Source: Planotetraspora sp. A-T 1434 (lineage in GTDB: Bacteria; Actinomycetota; Actinomycetes; Streptosporangiales; Streptosporangiaceae). From it: a stretch of DNA of 64,000 nt. Position numbers and translations under genes: made by a program. Where the stretch lies: assembly GCF_025420585.1 (NCBI RefSeq), contig NZ_JAOEGB010000010.1, forward strand, positions 186,001 to 250,000. Reading direction: 5' to 3'. A model generated the notes under the pieces. It had not been told where the DNA came from. It ran no database searches and saw nothing but the letters and a program-made list of their open reading frames with translations. This document shows, piece after piece, positions 48,194 through 54,801 of the stretch (its first letter is position 1; every line of letters starts with the position of its first letter).

Positions 48194-49990
48194 GTGTCCG
48201 TTTCAGTAGAGGTATCCCTTCCGACCACTCACGCCGAGCTGGCCGACTGGGTCAGAGAGATCGCCGAGCTGACCCAGCCCGACCGGATCGAATGGTGCGA
48301 CGGTTCCGAGGCCGAATGGACCCGCCTGACCAACCTGCTCGTACGGCAGGGCACGCTCACGCGCCTGGTGAAACGGCCCAACAGCTTCTACGCCGCCTCG
48401 GACCCCAGCGACGTCGCCCGCGTGGAGGACCGCACGTTCATCTGCTCGGAGCGGCCCGAGGACGCGGGGCCGACCAACAACTGGATCGCGCCCGCCGAGA
48501 TGCGCCGGACCTTCTCCACCCTCTTCAAGGGCTGCATGCGGGGCCGGACGATGTACGTCGTGCCGTTCTGCATGGGTCCGCTGGGCGGGAACATCTCCCA
48601 GCTCGGCGTGGAGATCACCGACTCGCCCTATGTCGTGGTGTCGATGCGGATCATGACCCGGATGGGTGAGGACGCGCTGCGCCTGATCGAGGAGCGCGGT
48701 GACTTCGTCAAGGCGGTCCACTCCGTCGGCGCGCCGCTGGAGGCGGGCCAGGCCGACGTGCCGTGGCCGTGCAGCCAGACCAAGTACATCAGTCACTTCC
48801 CGGAGACCCGCGAGATCTGGTCCTACGGCTCCGGCTACGGCGGCAACGCGCTGCTCGGCAAGAAGTGCTACGCGCTGCGCATCGCCAGCGTGATGGCCCG
48901 CGACGAGGGCTGGCTCGCCGAGCACATGCTGATCCTCAAACTCACCCCGCCCAAGGGGGAGGCCCGCTACGTCGCGGCCGCCTTCCCGTCGGCGTGCGGG
49001 AAGACCAACCTCGCCATGCTCCAGCCGACCATCCCGGGCTGGAAGGTCGAGACGATCGGCGACGACATCGCCTGGATGCGCTTCGGGCAGGACGGCCGCC
49101 TCTACGCCATCAACCCCGAGGCCGGTTTCTTCGGCGTCGCGCCCGGCACGGGCCAGTCCACTAACGCCAACGCGGTCAGGACGCTCTGGGGCAACAGCAT
49201 CTTCACCAACGTCGCGCTGACCGACGACGGCGACGTGTGGTGGGAGGGCCTCACCGACGAGCCGCCCGCGCACCTGACCGACTGGCGGGGCCGCTCCTGG
49301 ACGCCGGACTCCGCCGAGCCCGCCGCCCACCCGAACGCCCGGTTCACGACGCCGGCCGAGCAGTGCCCGACCATCGCCCGCGAATGGCAGGATCCGGAGG
49401 GCGTGCCGATCTCGGCGATCCTGTTCGGCGGCCGGCGGGCCACCGCCGTGCCGCTCGTCACCGAGTCGCTGAGCTGGCAGCACGGGGTGTTCCTCGGCGC
49501 CAACGTGGCCTCGGAGAAGACGGCCGCCGCCGAGGGCAAGGTCGGCGAGCTGCGCCGCGACCCGTTCGCGATGCTCCCGTTCTGCGGCTACAACATGGGC
49601 GACTACTTCGCCCACTGGGTCAAGATCGGCAAGACGGCCGACCCGGCGAAGCTGCCGCGGATCTACTACGTGAACTGGTTCCGCAAGGACGCGGGCGGCC
49701 GGTTCGTGTGGCCGGGCTTTGGCGAGAACATGCGGGTTCTCAAATGGATCGTCGAGCGGCTGAACGGCGAGGCGGAAGCCGTACCGACCGCGATCGGCAA
49801 CCTGCCGGCCACGCTCGACACCGAGGGTCTGGACATCTCGCGGGACGATCTGGATCTCCTGCTGAGCGTCGACGCCGACGTCTGGCGCGAGGAGGCCGCG
49901 CTCGTCCCCGGGTTCTTCGAGACCTTCGGCGACCACCTCCCCGTGGAGCTCTGGGACGAGTACCGCGCCCTGGTGAAACGCCTCGGCTGA
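48194..49990 (+). CDS. pckG: phosphoenolpyruvate carboxykinase (GTP)
   Basis: 598 aa from GTG 48194 with AAGGAG 8 bases upstream. It makes PEP from oxaloacetate and GTP, the first step of gluconeogenesis. The kinase P-loop is [13 protein letters not shown] with ACGKTN at 267-272; the catalytic Cys268 within it is typical of the GTP class. [14 protein letters not shown] holds Mn2+ ligands, and the C-terminal [11 protein letters not shown] is conserved. Full length with no missing residues. The upstream dre-like sites suggest control by amino-sugar signalling. Confidence 0.96.
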
Positions 49991-50141: not shown

Positions 50142-51281
50142 ATGGAGTTAGTGCTTTTCCTCGCCGCGACGGTGGTCGCGGTGCTCCTCGGCTCGGCCGT
50201 GTCCACGCTCAACCGCGTGCACGGCCGGATCCGCTCGGTGACGGCCCTCGGCCGGCCCGACATCGACCACTACGAGCTGGCCTACCTCGCCGGAGGGCCG
50301 CGCCGGGTGATCAACACGGCCATCGCGCTGCTCTCCGCACAGGACCGGATCCGCGTCTCGCGCGGAGGCCGGATCACCACCGTGGCAGGAGCCCCCACCT
50401 CCTCCCGCGACGCCGTCGAGCAGGCCGTCCTCGACCAGGCGTCCTCCCCCGGAGGCCGTACGGCCGGCGAGATCCGGCACGAGGTCGCCGGGGGCGTGGC
50501 CATGACGGGGCTCAAGCACCGGCTGATCGGCCGGGGGCTGCTGCTTCCGGACGGCTCCCTGACGGAGCCGCGGCGGATCCACGCGCGCCTGCGCGGCCTG
50601 ACCCTGCTGGCCTTCGGCGTCGAGGTGCTCTCGCTGGTGATGGCGGCGACGGGTCTCGTCCCCTGGAACGTCCCAACCCTGCTCGCGGTGCTCTTCGCGG
50701 GCGGCTCCGGCGTGCGGGGCCTGCTCGCGTACCGGCGGCACGCGCGCTCGCTGCGCGGACTCCTCACCAGGGGAGGTCTCGACGCACTCCAGGCCGCCCG
50801 GAAGCGGCAGCCGTATTCGGCCGGGTCGGTGTCCGGGCCCGACCTCTACGCGTTGAGCAGCGCCGGATACGAGCCCGGCATGGCCGTCCACCATCCCATC
50901 GCCGCCGAATCGGCCGCGTACGCGGCGATGGCGGGCGCGGTGGCGCTCTACGGACTCGGCCAGTTCGGCGACCAGGCCGTGGCCGCCGAGATCGGCCGGG
51001 AGGAGATCGTCCACCACGGGGCCGGTGGCGCGGGCGCGACCTGCGCGGCCGGGGCGTGCGGAGGCGGCACGCCGGACGGCGGATCGGCGTTCGGGTCGGA
51101 CGGCGGAGGTAGCGGATCCGACAGTGGATCGGCCTCATGGGGCGACTCCGGCGGCTGGGGTTGCGGAGCCGGTGGCGGTGACTTCGGCGGCGGCGACTCC
51201 GGCGGCTCAAGCTGTGGCGGTTCGAGCTGCGGTTCCAGCTGCGGTTCAAGTTGCGGCGGAGGAGGCTGCGGCGGTGGCTGA
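50142..51281 (+). CDS. TIGR04222-type membrane protein with Gly/Ser/Cys tail (putative MNIO substrate)
   Basis: 379 aa from ATG 50142 after AGGAGGGC. Membrane helices lie at about 1-20, 150-170, 175-195 and 265-280. The N-terminal 145 residues ([17 protein letters not shown]) fit the TIGR04222 domain, known for low-complexity C-terminal tails. From about residue 290 the protein is almost only Gly, Ser, Asp and Cys. All eight cysteines of the protein lie in this tail, four of them in repeats of GSSC encoded by a 12-bp DNA repeat. The stop overlaps the MNIO start by 8 bp. I infer that the tail is the MNIO enzyme's substrate. Confidence 0.82.
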
Positions 51282-52092
51282 CCACGCCGGGCCGGCGGAG
51301 CTGGGAGTCGGGATCGGGTGGCGGCCGGAGATCGACCTCACCGTGGAGCGGCTCGGCGTCGACTTCGTCGAGGTGATCGCCGAGAACGTCAACCCGGCGC
51401 GGGTCCCCGAGTCGCTCACCGTGCTGCGGGGCCGGGGTGTGCCGGTCATCCCGCATGGCGTCGGCCTCGGCATCGGAGGCGCCGACAGACCCGACGCCTC
51501 CCGGCTCCGGCATCTGGCCGCCTGCGCCGAGGCGCTGGGCGCCCCCCTCGTGAGCGAGCACCTGGCGTTCGTCAGGGGCGGCGGCCTGGAAGCCGGGCAC
51601 CTGCTGCCGGTCCCGCGCACCCGGGAGGCGCTGTCCGTGGTCGCCGGCAACGTACGGCTCGCCCAGGACGCCCTTCCGGTGCCGCTCGCCCTGGAGAACG
51701 TCGCGGCCCTGTTCGGCTGGCCGGAAGACGAGCTGACCGAGGCCGAGTTCCTCGGGGAGCTGGTCGAGCGCACCGGCGTGAAGCTGCTGATCGACGTGGC
51801 CAACCTGTACACGAACCAGGTCAACCTCGGGCTGGACGCGCGGGACGCCCTGGACGGCCTGCCCCTGGCCGAGCTCGCCTATGTGCACGTGGCCGGAGGG
51901 CACGCCCGCGACGGCGTGTGGCACGACACCCACACCGCCTCGGCGCCGGACGAGGTCCTGGACCTGCTGTCGGAGCTGTGCGCCCGCGCACGGCCTCCGG
52001 GTGTGCTGCTCGAATGGGACGACGACTACCCGAGTGACGCGACGCTGGCGGGCGAGCTGGACCGGATCCGGGCGGCGATGTCCCGTGCCTGA
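51274..52092 (+). CDS. DUF692/MNIO-family iron-dependent peptide-modifying enzyme
   Basis: 272 aa from GTG 51274, with GGAGGAGG 8 bases upstream inside the previous gene. TIM-barrel DUF692 family, related to MbnB and TglH, which use two or three irons to oxidise Cys residues of peptides. Candidate metal ligands are all present: Glu37, His61, Glu95/His96, Glu141-Asn142, Asp174, Asn177, His205 and His210 (HVAGGH), Asp218 and His220 (HDTH), and Glu247. It overlaps both neighbours by 8 bp, so all three are co-translated. Target residue and chemistry are inferred, not shown. Confidence 0.9.
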
Positions 52093-52456
52093 CCGAGGGG
52101 CAGACCCCGGCGCCCGGGAGTCGCTCGCCGCCGCGCAGGCGGATTTGCTGGCGGCTCTGGTCGCGGGAGGCCCCATCCCCGAGGGCTTCGACGTGGCGCG
52201 CGTCCGCATCCAGGCGCACAGCCTGATGGCGAAGCGGAGGGGATCGGTCGCCCGCGTCCTCCCTGGCCTCGTCAGGGCGCTCGGCGGGACCTTCGCCAAG
52301 GAGTTCGCCGCCTATGCCGAGGGCCGTCCCAAACCCGCCGGCGGGTCGCGGGCCGACGCCCGGGCGTTCCTTGACTGGCTGGGCTCGGAGGGACGCCTAC
52401 CGGACCGGCCCGCGCCCGTCGTGGGCGGCGCGGGCACCTCGCGGCGCCCGCGATAA
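52085..52456 (+). CDS. small partner protein of the MNIO enzyme
   Basis: 123 aa from GTG 52085, overlapping the MNIO stop by 8 bp. Helical core: [64 protein letters not shown] and [11 protein letters not shown]. It resembles the small proteins that accompany DUF692 genes in Streptomyces (SCO6045-like) and plays the role MbnC or TglI play in known systems: binding the substrate or enzyme. No catalytic motif. The family assignment is by pattern and position. Confidence 0.72.
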
Positions 52457-52497: not shown

Positions 52498-53259
52498 ATG
52501 GGCATGCGCGATCTCGTGTACAAGCTGTACGAGCGCAGGCTCGAACTGAAGCTCTCCTCTGACCAGATCCCCCGGCACGTGGGCGTGATCGTCGACGGCA
52601 ACCGGCGCTGGGCCAGGGCCATGGGCCTGCGCGACGTCAGCCGCGGGCACCAGAAGGGCGCCGACAAGATTTCGGAACTGCTCGTGTGGTGCAGGGAGGC
52701 CGGCGTCGAGTACGTGACGCTGTGGCTGCTGTCCACCGACAACCTCACCAGGGACAAGGCCGAGCTGGAGCCGTTGCTGCAGGTCATCGAGGGTCTCGTG
52801 CAGGACCTCGTCGATCAGGGCTGGCATGTGACGCCGATGGGGTCGCTCGACCTGCTGCCCGATCACACGGCTCGTGTCCTCAAAGATGCGAAAGAGACCA
52901 CATCACATCGTCCCGGCCTGATTGTGAACGTTGCGGTTGGGTATGGAGGAAGACGTGAGATCGCTGATGCGGTGCGCTCCCTCCTCCAGGAGCACGCAAG
53001 CAAGGGCGCGAGCATCGAGGAACTCGTCGAGGTCCTCGATGTCGAGCACATCGCGGAGCATCTCTACACGCGCGGCCTCCCCGACCCGGATCTTGTCATC
53101 CGGACCTCGGGAGAGCAGCGACTCTCCGGATTCCTGCTCTGGCAGAGCGCCCACTCCGAGTTCTACTTCTGCGAGGCCTACTGGCCTGACTTCCGCAGAG
53201 TCGACTTCCTGCGGGCACTCCGCTCATATGCCGCGCGTCACCGTCGGTACGGCTCCTAG
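52498..53259 (+). CDS. uppS: short-chain Z-isoprenyl diphosphate synthase (UppS family)
   Basis: 253 aa from ATG 52498 after GGGAAGAGG. Cis-prenyltransferase fold: VGVIVDGNRRWAR with the metal/catalytic Asp33, RTSGEQRLSGFLLWQ for IPP binding, and SEFYFCEAYWPDF near the C-terminus. Length and neighbouring phoH2 match the mycobacterial Rv1086 region, whose enzyme makes Z,E-farnesyl diphosphate for decaprenyl synthesis. Chain length cannot be read here. The lipid product would carry wall precursors. Confidence 0.9.
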   Translation: MGMRDLVYKLYERRLELKLSSDQIPRHVGVIVDGNRRWARAMGLRDVSRGHQKGADKISELLVWCREAGVEYVTLWLLSTDNLTRDKAELEPLLQVIEGLVQDLVDQGWHVTPMGSLDLLPDHTARVLKDAKETTSHRPGLIVNVAVGYGGRREIADAVRSLLQEHASKGASIEELVEVLDVEHIAEHLYTRGLPDPDLVIRTSGEQRLSGFLLWQSAHSEFYFCEAYWPDFRRVDFLRALRSYAARHRRYGS

Positions 53260-53490: not shown

Positions 53491-54801
53491 GTGGCAGTGT
53501 CCTCGAGCAACCCGTCCACATCCCGCACCTACGTCCTGGACACCTCAGTCCTGCTCGCCGACCCGGCGGCGATGAGCCGCTTCGACGAGCACGAGGTCGT
53601 CCTTCCGATCGTCGTCGTCACGGAACTGGAGGCCAAGCGGCATCACCCCGAGCTGGGCTACTTCGCCCGCGAGGCGCTTCGCTTCCTCGACGACCTTCGG
53701 GTGCGGCACGGACGGCTGGATGAGCCCATGCCTGTCGGCGAGGGCACAATCCGGGTCGAGCTCAACCATAGTGATCCATCCGTCCTCCCGGCGGGATTCC
53801 GCCTCGGGGACAACGACACGCGCATCCTGACGGTCGCGCAGAACCTCGCGGCGGAGGGCCGCGACGTGGTCCTCGTGTCGAAGGACCTGCCGATGCGGGT
53901 CAAGGCCGCCTCCATCGGCCTGAGCGCGGAGGAGTACCGCGCGGGCATGGTCGTCGAGTCCGGCTGGACCGGCATGGCGGAGCTCCAGGTCACCACCGAG
54001 GACGTCGAGGCGCTCTTCGAGGCCGGCACGGCCGACCTGGAAGAGGCCCGCGACATGCCCTGCCACACAGGGCTGCGGCTGCTGTCCAGCCGTGGCTCCG
54101 CGCTCGGCCGCGTCATGCCGGACAAGTCGGTACGGCTGGTCCGGGGCGACCGTGAGGTCTTCGGCCTGCACGGCCGGTCGGCCGAGCAGCGGATCGCCCT
54201 CGACATCCTGATGGACCCCGAGGTCGGCATCGTCTCCATGGGCGGCCGCGCGGGCACCGGCAAGTCGGCCCTCGCCCTGTGCGCGGGCCTGGAGGCCGTG
54301 CTGGAGCGCCGCCAGCACCGCAAGGTCATCGTGTTCCGCCCGCTGTACGCCGTGGGCGGCCAGGAGCTCGGTTACCTGCCCGGTTCGGAGAACGAGAAGA
54401 TGGGCCCGTGGGCCCAGGCCGTCTACGACACGCTGGGCGCCGTGACGACTCCCGAGGTCATCGAGGAGGTGCTCGACCGCGGGATGCTGGAGGTCCTCCC
54501 CCTGACCCACATCCGCGGCCGGTCGCTGCACGACGCCTTCGTGATCGTGGACGAAGCCCAGTCGCTGGAGCGCGGGGTGCTGCTGACCGTGCTGTCGCGG
54601 ATCGGGGCCAACTCCCGGGTCGTGCTCACCCACGACATCGCCCAGCGCGACAACCTGCGGGTGGGCCGGCACGACGGCGTGGTGGCCGTGGTGGAGAAGC
54701 TCAAGGGCCACCCGCTGTTCGCGCACATCACGCTCACCAGGTCCGAGCGCTCCCCGATCGCCGCTCTGGTGACCGAGATGCTGGAGAACATCACCGTCTG
54801 A
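53491..54801 (+). CDS. phoH2: PhoH2: PIN-domain RNase fused to PhoH ATPase
   Basis: 436 aa. The PIN domain (12-150) has acidic residues Asp17, Glu45, Asp107/Asp109 and Asp132 (VSKD) for metal. The PhoH ATPase domain follows: Walker [10 protein letters not shown] (251-259), [20 protein letters not shown], Walker [12 protein letters not shown]. In mycobacteria PhoH2 is a sequence-specific RNA helicase/RNase forming a toxin-antitoxin unit with a short upstream ORF. The 231-bp region before this gene contains one frame (53345-53575) overlapping its start, but no obvious antitoxin. Confidence 0.92.

Follow-up and report, generated by a model that had tools for sequence, protein, structure and literature searches.

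The window analysed here, a 64,000-nucleotide stretch of Planotetraspora sp. A-T 1434 (contig NZ_JAOEGB010000010.1, positions 186,001 to 250,000), carries at 50142-52456 on the plus strand a cassette of three genes that, as read in the window DNA, are joined by two 8-bp overlaps. The genes encode a TIGR04222 membrane protein with a C-terminal Cys tail, an MNIO (DUF692) enzyme and a small partner protein, and comparisons with homologous loci suggest that the tail is the likely substrate of the enzyme. The features of the cassette are listed below; TM denotes a transmembrane segment and KD19 its hydrophobicity score.

50142..51281, +: TIGR04222 membrane protein, putative MNIO substrate, 379 residues (NCBIfam TIGR04222 match)
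50148..50204, +: TM1, residues 3-21, followed by a K/R-rich flank (KD19 2.49)
50604..50660, +: TM2, residues 155-173 (KD19 2.11; model helix 141-169)
50670..50726, +: TM3, residues 177-195 (KD19 1.52; model helix 177-204)
50895..50951, +: weakly hydrophobic helix, residues 252-270 (KD19 1.21; helix in the model)
51036..51278, +: predicted disordered Gly/Ser/Cys tail, residues 299-379, with all 8 Cys (from pLDDT and Cys positions)
51207..51269, +: SSC repeats and last Cys, residues 356-376, with four SSC units
51274..51281, +: overlap of genes 1 and 2, 8 bp, GTGGCTGA (read in the sequence)
51274..52092, +: MNIO (DUF692/PF05114) enzyme, 272 residues, GTG start (PF05114 match and Fe ligands)
52085..52092, +: overlap of genes 2 and 3, 8 bp, GTGCCTGA (read in the sequence)
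52085..52456, +: MNIO partner, 123 residues, GTG start, predicted DUF2063/MbnC-like helical domain (AlphaFold2 model and MbnC match)

A preliminary description of this DNA had named three genes with 8-bp overlaps, encoding a TIGR04222-type membrane protein with all eight Cys in its last 90 residues, a DUF692 enzyme with a full set of metal ligands and a small helical partner. All of this was recovered: the overlaps lie at 51274-51281 and 52085-52092, the membrane protein matches the NCBIfam TIGR04222 model at 98.9 bits (cut-off 43), its Cys all fall within the last 79 residues, nine of nine ligands align, and the 123-residue partner is modelled as four helices.

In an AlphaFold2 model of the membrane protein built from 39 homologues (pLDDT 78.7), the tail is predicted to be disordered, with pLDDT below 50 over residues 299-355 and 357-379. 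Its Cys occupy residues 301, 306, 341, 358, 363, 367, 371 and 376 of 379. The four SSC repeats are spelled by four different synonymous DNA strings and thus do not stem from a fresh DNA duplication, and tails of this type were seen beside MNIO genes in many genera. The protein fits the subset of TIGR04222 proteins, with Cys in a low-complexity Gly/Ser C-terminus, that was tied to MNIOs by Antoine et al. (2025; PMC12452194). Bufferin precursors are small and carry DUF2282 or another bufferin signature; the 379-residue window protein belongs to TIGR04222 and gave no DUF2282 match with Pfam at E values up to 1. We also observed a proximal C-x4-C-G motif, CAAGACGG (window 51042-51068, residues 301-309), set apart from the distal SSC repeats; it recurs in Streptosporangiaceae, where CAxGxCG is found in 17 of 130 Cys-tail proteins.

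The MNIO matches PF05114 at 267.6 bits, compared with a Pfam gathering cut-off of 25. The nine iron ligands listed for TglH in PMC10880893 align to H61, H96, E141, D174, N177, H205, D218, H220 and E247 of the window enzyme; these columns are invariant in 12 aligned MNIO sequences, and the nine ligands are intact in 96/96 MNIOs of sufficient length in the genome sample described below. The best NCBIfam models are BufB and HvfB at 189.3 and 148.8 bits, under their equivalog cut-offs of 310 and 360, while MbnB reaches 35 bits (cut-off 325). By these profile scores, the window MNIO is related to the Cys-modifying enzymes of bufferin systems without being BufB.

The 123-residue partner has no NCBIfam or Pfam match. 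Its AlphaFold2 model, made from an alignment of 39 homologues, consists of four helices and no strand (mean pLDDT 87.9), and the best VIA match of this model is MbnC (7dz9_C; Z 6.4, 83 residues, rmsd 2.9), followed by an entry at Z 3.8. The Z score is middling, but the match is to the expected protein and stands apart from the others, which suggests that the partner is kin to MbnC. DUF2063 was matched directly by five of the 39 homologues (best E 2.4e-4), the window protein itself giving no match; a profile search of solved structures found no credible match to the partner, Foldseek with the model returned nothing below E 0.001 (MbnC was third at E 5.2), and the match to a profile of three bufferin partners was weak (probability 11.5, E 0.0026). 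In PMC12452194, PME-type 2 partners follow the MNIO gene, lack a Pfam DUF2063 signature and have a DUF2063-like helical model, all of which applies here; PME-type 1 partners combine DUF2063 with an RRE domain in ~260 residues, a size and architecture that the 123-residue, four-helix window protein does not share.

We surveyed partners among all open reading frames (ORFs) at 102 of 112 sample MNIO places (10 were not fetched) and at 80 named loci. This gave 176 distinct MNIO loci, six (L219, L223, L228, L236, L265 and L286) occurring in both sets and being counted once, and their ORFs were searched with home-made profiles for TIGR04222, partner and MNIO. The partner domain was found at 107 of the 110 distinct Cys-tail TIGR04222 loci: 72 encode it in a gene of its own and 35 fused to the MNIO C-terminus. 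Two of the three loci without it lie at contig ends (L224 and L225) and the third, L259, is genuine. The window partner (P0003) alone, used as a query, finds the C-terminus of 76/77 fused ORFs (75 distinct). Of the 36 separate partner genes that served as seeds, 12 overlap the end of the MNIO gene by 8 bases and 14 by 4 bases. PMC12452194 reports partners in at least 10% of clusters, with many clusters appearing to lack a partner gene, and our profile matches suggest that partner divergence and fusion to the MNIO explain most of this apparent absence in the surveyed set. The near-universal partner domain and the natural fusions answer a published open point, namely how the enzyme acts without a visible partner gene, and the fusions are one-polypeptide enzymes ready for study. 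We found no literature report of MNIO-partner fusions in TIGR04222 loci, the supplements of PMC12452194 lying outside the search. The Streptomyces-type fusions (L254, L266, L278, L280, L283) are a natural counterpart of the laboratory HvfB-HvfC fusion that was made for enzyme study (PMC13419390).

In a class-level sample of 393 genomes, the searches located TIGR04222 in 126 and an MNIO in 98. A Cys tail was defined as at least 3 Cys and at least 20 G/S/C in the last 40 residues; at least 150 TIGR04222 places were listed, only the 7 best candidates being scored in most genomes, and the counts in this paragraph, like those of MNIO-unlinked tails below, refer to the 150 places listed. An MNIO lay within 8 kb of 60/69 Cys-tail TIGR04222 genes, compared with 25/81 others; conversely, a Cys tail was present in 60 of the 85 TIGR04222 proteins with an MNIO within 8 kb and in 9 of the 65 without (Fisher p 1.4e-12, kinship ignored). 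With the MNIO downstream, as in the window, 44/46 had the tail, and with the MNIO upstream 16/39. Seven of the nine Cys tails without a nearby MNIO belong to genomes that carry one at another place. Among the 37 TIGR04222 proteins of genomes lacking an MNIO match, 2 were called as Cys-tailed, and both calls are doubtful: that in G079 lies at a contig end, where a downstream MNIO would not fit, and that in G181 is probably a wrong-frame run-on. The expectation of the preliminary description that tail Cys content tracks the MNIO gene is therefore supported, within the limit that the gene tree offers six well-supported independent pairs (on average 3.1 concordant, 0.1 discordant and 2.9 without difference; median p 0.25), and the frequent Cys-tail genes without an MNIO that would have contradicted it were not seen. 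Its proposal that MNIO and partner act on the Cys tail stands as the best reading.

The composition of the tails points the same way. In 125 distinct Cys tails holding 653 Cys, with expectations obtained by shuffling within tails, CC occurs 0 times (66 expected) and CxC 0 times (59 expected). The residue after Cys is Gly in 563 of 653 cases (86%; 331 expected), Ser in 76 and Ala in 12, the remaining 2 Cys ending the protein. Gly or Ser precedes the Cys, and the spacing between Cys peaks at 5-6. Even numbers of Cys per tail are not favoured (59 even, 66 odd, p 0.59), and at least 2 His occur in the last 80 residues of 21/125 tails. These rules match what would be expected if the tails were selected by an enzyme that acts on isolated Cys flanked by small residues.

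Tails of this kind are also carried by other anchors. At nine of the 176 loci, the MNIO has a neighbour that falls outside the TIGR04222 profile and yet has a Gly/Ser/His/Cys tail at its C-terminus; all nine have a separate partner, and in eight a TM precedes the tail. The ninth (L287) has no TM in its last 120 residues, and a TIGR04222-like ORF at this locus falls just below the tail threshold. Of the five sample genomes of code f17 with an MNIO-unlinked Cys-tail TIGR04222 protein, four carry such an anchor at the MNIO (G111, G196, G280 and G304, not G100). The single-TM anchors (L185, L186, L188, L189, L196, L197, L205, L207) are ~60-120 residues long, stand beside MNIO and partner and have Gly/His/Cys or Gly/Ser/Cys tails, L188 having two such proteins; they possibly overlap the published very small 'adjamnio-V' proteins, an identity that is not confirmed. 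Among TIGR04222 proteins not adjoining an MNIO, 20 have G/S-rich tails below the Cys threshold, and 12 of these 20 end in Asp. In MNIO-less genomes (e.g. L121, L122, L131, L143), we observed TIGR04222 proteins whose long, nearly Cys-free Gly tails terminate in a single Asp or Glu (GGGGGGD), so that the tail seems to have a role apart from Cys chemistry.

The side of the membrane on which the tail lies decides between a surface and an intracellular metal system. TM1, TM2 and TM3 could be placed in 108 of the 125 distinct Cys-tail proteins, and K+R were counted in 15-residue flanks. The means were 3.4 after TM1, 3.4 before TM2 and 3.6 after TM3, and 0.5 before TM1 and 0.7 in the TM2-TM3 loop; 107/108 proteins obey the positive-inside rule with the body and the post-TM3 stretch in the cytoplasm. 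Profile comparison shows homology of the body to DUF2207_C, with a probability of 91.6 and E 8e-7 over 174 columns (the control probabilities were 0.2 for the partner and 0.1 for the MNIO), and 11 of 39 aligned members touch the DUF2207_C Pfam model (best E 0.019). Four of nine DUF2207 proteins read have an N-terminal signal-like segment and ~190-240 residues before a TM, and the same charge pattern behind that TM (start codons chosen by script) places the DUF2207_C domain inside. Eight single-TM anchors have 4-7 K/R within 20 residues after the TM; before it, their uncertain start codons give 0-1 K/R with the nearest start and up to 9 in 20 residues in stop-to-stop frames. Because of the charge flanks and the DUF2207_C homology, we consider the tail more likely to be cytoplasmic, contrary to the surface tail suggested in the preliminary description. 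No literature report of a cytoplasmic TIGR04222 tail was found, again with the supplements of PMC12452194 outside the search. GPP34/GOLPH3 was also considered as the fold of the TIGR04222 body and rejected: five GOLPH3/Vps74 entries scored Z 7.1-8.6, a range common for helical models, the GPP34 profile match was short (78 columns, probability 82.2, E 1e-5, compared with 174 columns and 91.6 for DUF2207_C), and GPP34 was not among the best 25 of 54 families for the 39 aligned TIGR04222 members. The body weakly resembles winged-helix domains (HTH_Crp_2, 5/39 members, best 0.0012).

Taken together, these comparisons favour, with reasonable probability, a three-gene protein-modification cassette in which a cytosolic MNIO-partner pair would oxidise Cys in a tail tethered to the membrane. 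The likelier part of this proposal, which can be held with some confidence, is that the tail serves as substrate of the MNIO. The TIGR04222 protein would be anchored by TM1 and a TM2-TM3 hairpin around its DUF2207_C-like body and end in the disordered tail; the MNIO and the DUF2063/MbnC-like partner would form a soluble cytosolic complex that binds the tail, whose cytoplasmic position would let them act at any time. The complex would oxidise isolated, mostly Cys-Gly, residues, most likely to 5-thiooxazoles with 4 Da lost per Cys. This product is proposed by analogy with captophorins: characterised related MNIOs make copper-binding 5-thiooxazoles with a loss of 4 Da per Cys (PMC13097082, PMC13419390). 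On this analogy, we put thiooxazole at roughly an even chance. The modified tail would remain on the membrane protein, where it would probably act as a buffer or sensor by binding a soft metal, such as copper, on the inner side, although whether it has a metal role at all appears to us evenly balanced. RiPP-type (ribosomally synthesised and post-translationally modified peptide) release of a core peptide by proteolysis is not expected under this reading, and no protease gene was identified among the neighbours scanned. More tentatively, and with somewhat less than even prospects, the cassette may represent a non-cleaved, cytoplasm-facing, membrane-tethered MNIO product, a heterocycle array serving as a fixed metal buffer or sensor, with the tail carried by a DUF2207_C-like multi-TM body or a single TM and the enzyme being an MNIO-partner pair or fusion. 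Such a fixed inner-face device would be unlike exported bufferins and methanobactin.

Several observations weigh against this reading. The association of tail and MNIO is largely clade-wise, so that with six supported independent pairs it has the right direction but is not independent proof. A tail selected merely to avoid Cys pairs would look alike, and the preference for Gly after Cys could reflect the Gly-rich repeats themselves. A copper gene was not among the genes identified adjoining the window cassette. On the basis of AlphaFold2 and TM prediction, PMC12452194 places the tail in the periplasm, and helix 252-270 of our model could be a fourth TM. Furthermore, 30 of the 176 distinct MNIO loci have only a TIGR04222 protein without a qualifying Cys tail (27 of them with a fused partner), and at another 27 no TIGR04222 was found. 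About two dozen of the 30 are Streptomyces-type, comprising 7 named Streptomyces and 17 sample genomes that all share one genus code with named Streptomyces; the MNIOs of tail-less loci keep all ligands in 18/18 aligned sample sequences, and those of the Streptomyces type may have their substrate elsewhere or another target. Some of these counts are affected by thresholds and contig ends: of the 12 distinct named tail-less loci, three (L226, L232 and L242) fall short of the threshold of 3 with 1-2 Cys in the last 40 residues, and two (L267 and L276) are truncated at a contig end. G312 and G264:C141 were counted as lacking a Cys-tail protein, despite an upstream ORF with such a tail at its end. 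Part of the 27 loci without TIGR04222 are other MNIO types (G287, G249:C22 and G230, with PF05114 above 366 bits), followed by DUF2063-like proteins of 219-281 residues.

The fourth hydrophobic segment is the point on which the side of the tail turns. If helix 252-270, which has 19 residues, crossed the membrane, a tail modified in the cytosol would end up outside and bind metal there; bufferins are exported, periplasmic tails were inferred in PMC12452194, and the segment reaches KD19 of at least 1.6 in 26/108 proteins. Its median of 1.31 is nevertheless low, as are the 1.21 of the window and the 0.77 of 22 tail-less paralogues, and the homology of the body to DUF2207_C and the K/R-rich stretch between TM and tail in the eight single-TM anchors also speak against export, which we regard as rather unlikely. 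The absence of an even-Cys bias argues against disulphide-paired exported tails, not against modified ones. About equally improbable, in our judgement, is that the tail is the substrate of a different reaction, such as TglH-like Cys oxidation or modification of a neighbouring residue, with a redox or structural role. MNIO chemistry is varied (PMC12452194, PMC13097082), the window enzyme falls under the BufB and HvfB equivalog cut-offs, and the Lys-Cys-Gly repeat of captophorins is absent, Gly or Ser preceding Cys here; yet the two best NCBIfam models are those of enzymes whose products derive from Cys, and every non-terminal Cys in the 125 tails is followed by Gly, Ser or Ala.

The tail could instead bind or sense metal through unmodified thiols and share an operon with an MNIO-partner pair acting elsewhere. 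The two dozen or so Streptomyces-type loci with MNIO-partner fusions, intact ligands and no Cys tail are in line with such a separation, as is the His content of some tails. We nonetheless think it quite improbable, given that tails with at least 3 Cys are concentrated beside MNIOs (60/69), that unrelated anchors with the same tail adjoin MNIOs at nine loci, and that no other common small peptide gene turned up in our sets in a search that was not exhaustive. Least probable by far is a drifting, functionless low-complexity sequence in which GGC-to-TGC changes accumulate in a Gly tail. The 20 TIGR04222 tails described above that do not adjoin an MNIO, G/S-rich and below the Cys threshold, would fit such drift, as would the Gly-rich ends of the DUF2207 relatives L302 and L304, but the complete lack of CC and CxC and the synonymous variation among the SSC repeats speak against it.

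The kind of cassette described here is already predicted in print. PMC12452194, the only paper naming TIGR04222 among the matches listed, describes MNIO genes next to those of TIGR04222 membrane proteins whose Gly/Ser tails contain Cys, and proposes a subset of these proteins as MNIO substrates with PME-type 2 partners. The arrangement itself, called unusual in the preliminary description, is therefore not new. The same paper notes that more than a quarter of the TIGR04222 proteins lack C-proximal Cys and that 490/1372 TIGR04222 genomes have no MNIO gene. The window shares with these clusters the gene pair, the C-terminal Gly/Ser/Cys tail and the PME-type 2 partner; it differs in that their tail was placed in the periplasm and many of them appear to lack a partner, whereas here the tail is likely cytoplasmic and the partner is present at 107/110 loci. 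With the bufferin, oxazolin and captophorin systems (BufABC, HvfABC, FonABC), it has in common the MNIO, the DUF2063-type partner and repeated Cys, often as Cys-Gly. However, the precursors there are small peptides exported by means of Sec signals, and the partners are of PME-type 1 with an RRE-type domain, in contrast to the putative multi-TM substrate and the single 123-residue helical partner domain of the window. MbnB-MbnC and TglH-TglI share the MNIO fold and the nine Fe ligands, MbnC being nearest to the partner model, but their substrates are small free peptides and the window MNIO is distant from MbnB. DUF2207 proteins (PF20990, C-terminal domain) have a homologous body, and two of 13 relatives read end in Gly-rich tails; they differ in an extra N-terminal domain behind a putative signal peptide (4/9 read), and no Cys were seen in their Gly tails. 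If the tail is modified, MNIO chemistry would extend from small exported peptides to the tails of integral membrane proteins in many actinomycetes.

The cassette is preceded by a PEPCK (phosphoenolpyruvate carboxykinase) gene at 48194-49990 and followed by an undecaprenyl-diphosphate-synthase-type gene (52498-53259) and a PhoH/PIN gene (53491-54801). The window genome has one MNIO and one TIGR04222 gene above the family cut-off. The named loci nearest its MNIO are from Planotetraspora, Acrocarpospora, Streptosporangium, Nonomuraea and Microbispora, and its family code is common to genomes identical to named Planobispora, Herbidospora, Planomonospora and Streptosporangium loci.

In Streptomyces, MNIO-partner fusions are followed by a DUF4142 membrane protein (L174, L054, L061, L170) and preceded by a PTH2-type peptidyl-tRNA hydrolase (L067, L054, L059), one protein of each of the two kinds having been tested; PTH2 neighbours correspond to adjamnio-II of PMC12452194. 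At Streptomyces-type loci (e.g. L055, L056, L173, L174), ORFs of several genomes that end in PQMLL lie ~100-150 bases upstream of the MNIO match, and these shared ends point to conserved non-coding DNA upstream of the MNIO, perhaps a promoter or operator.

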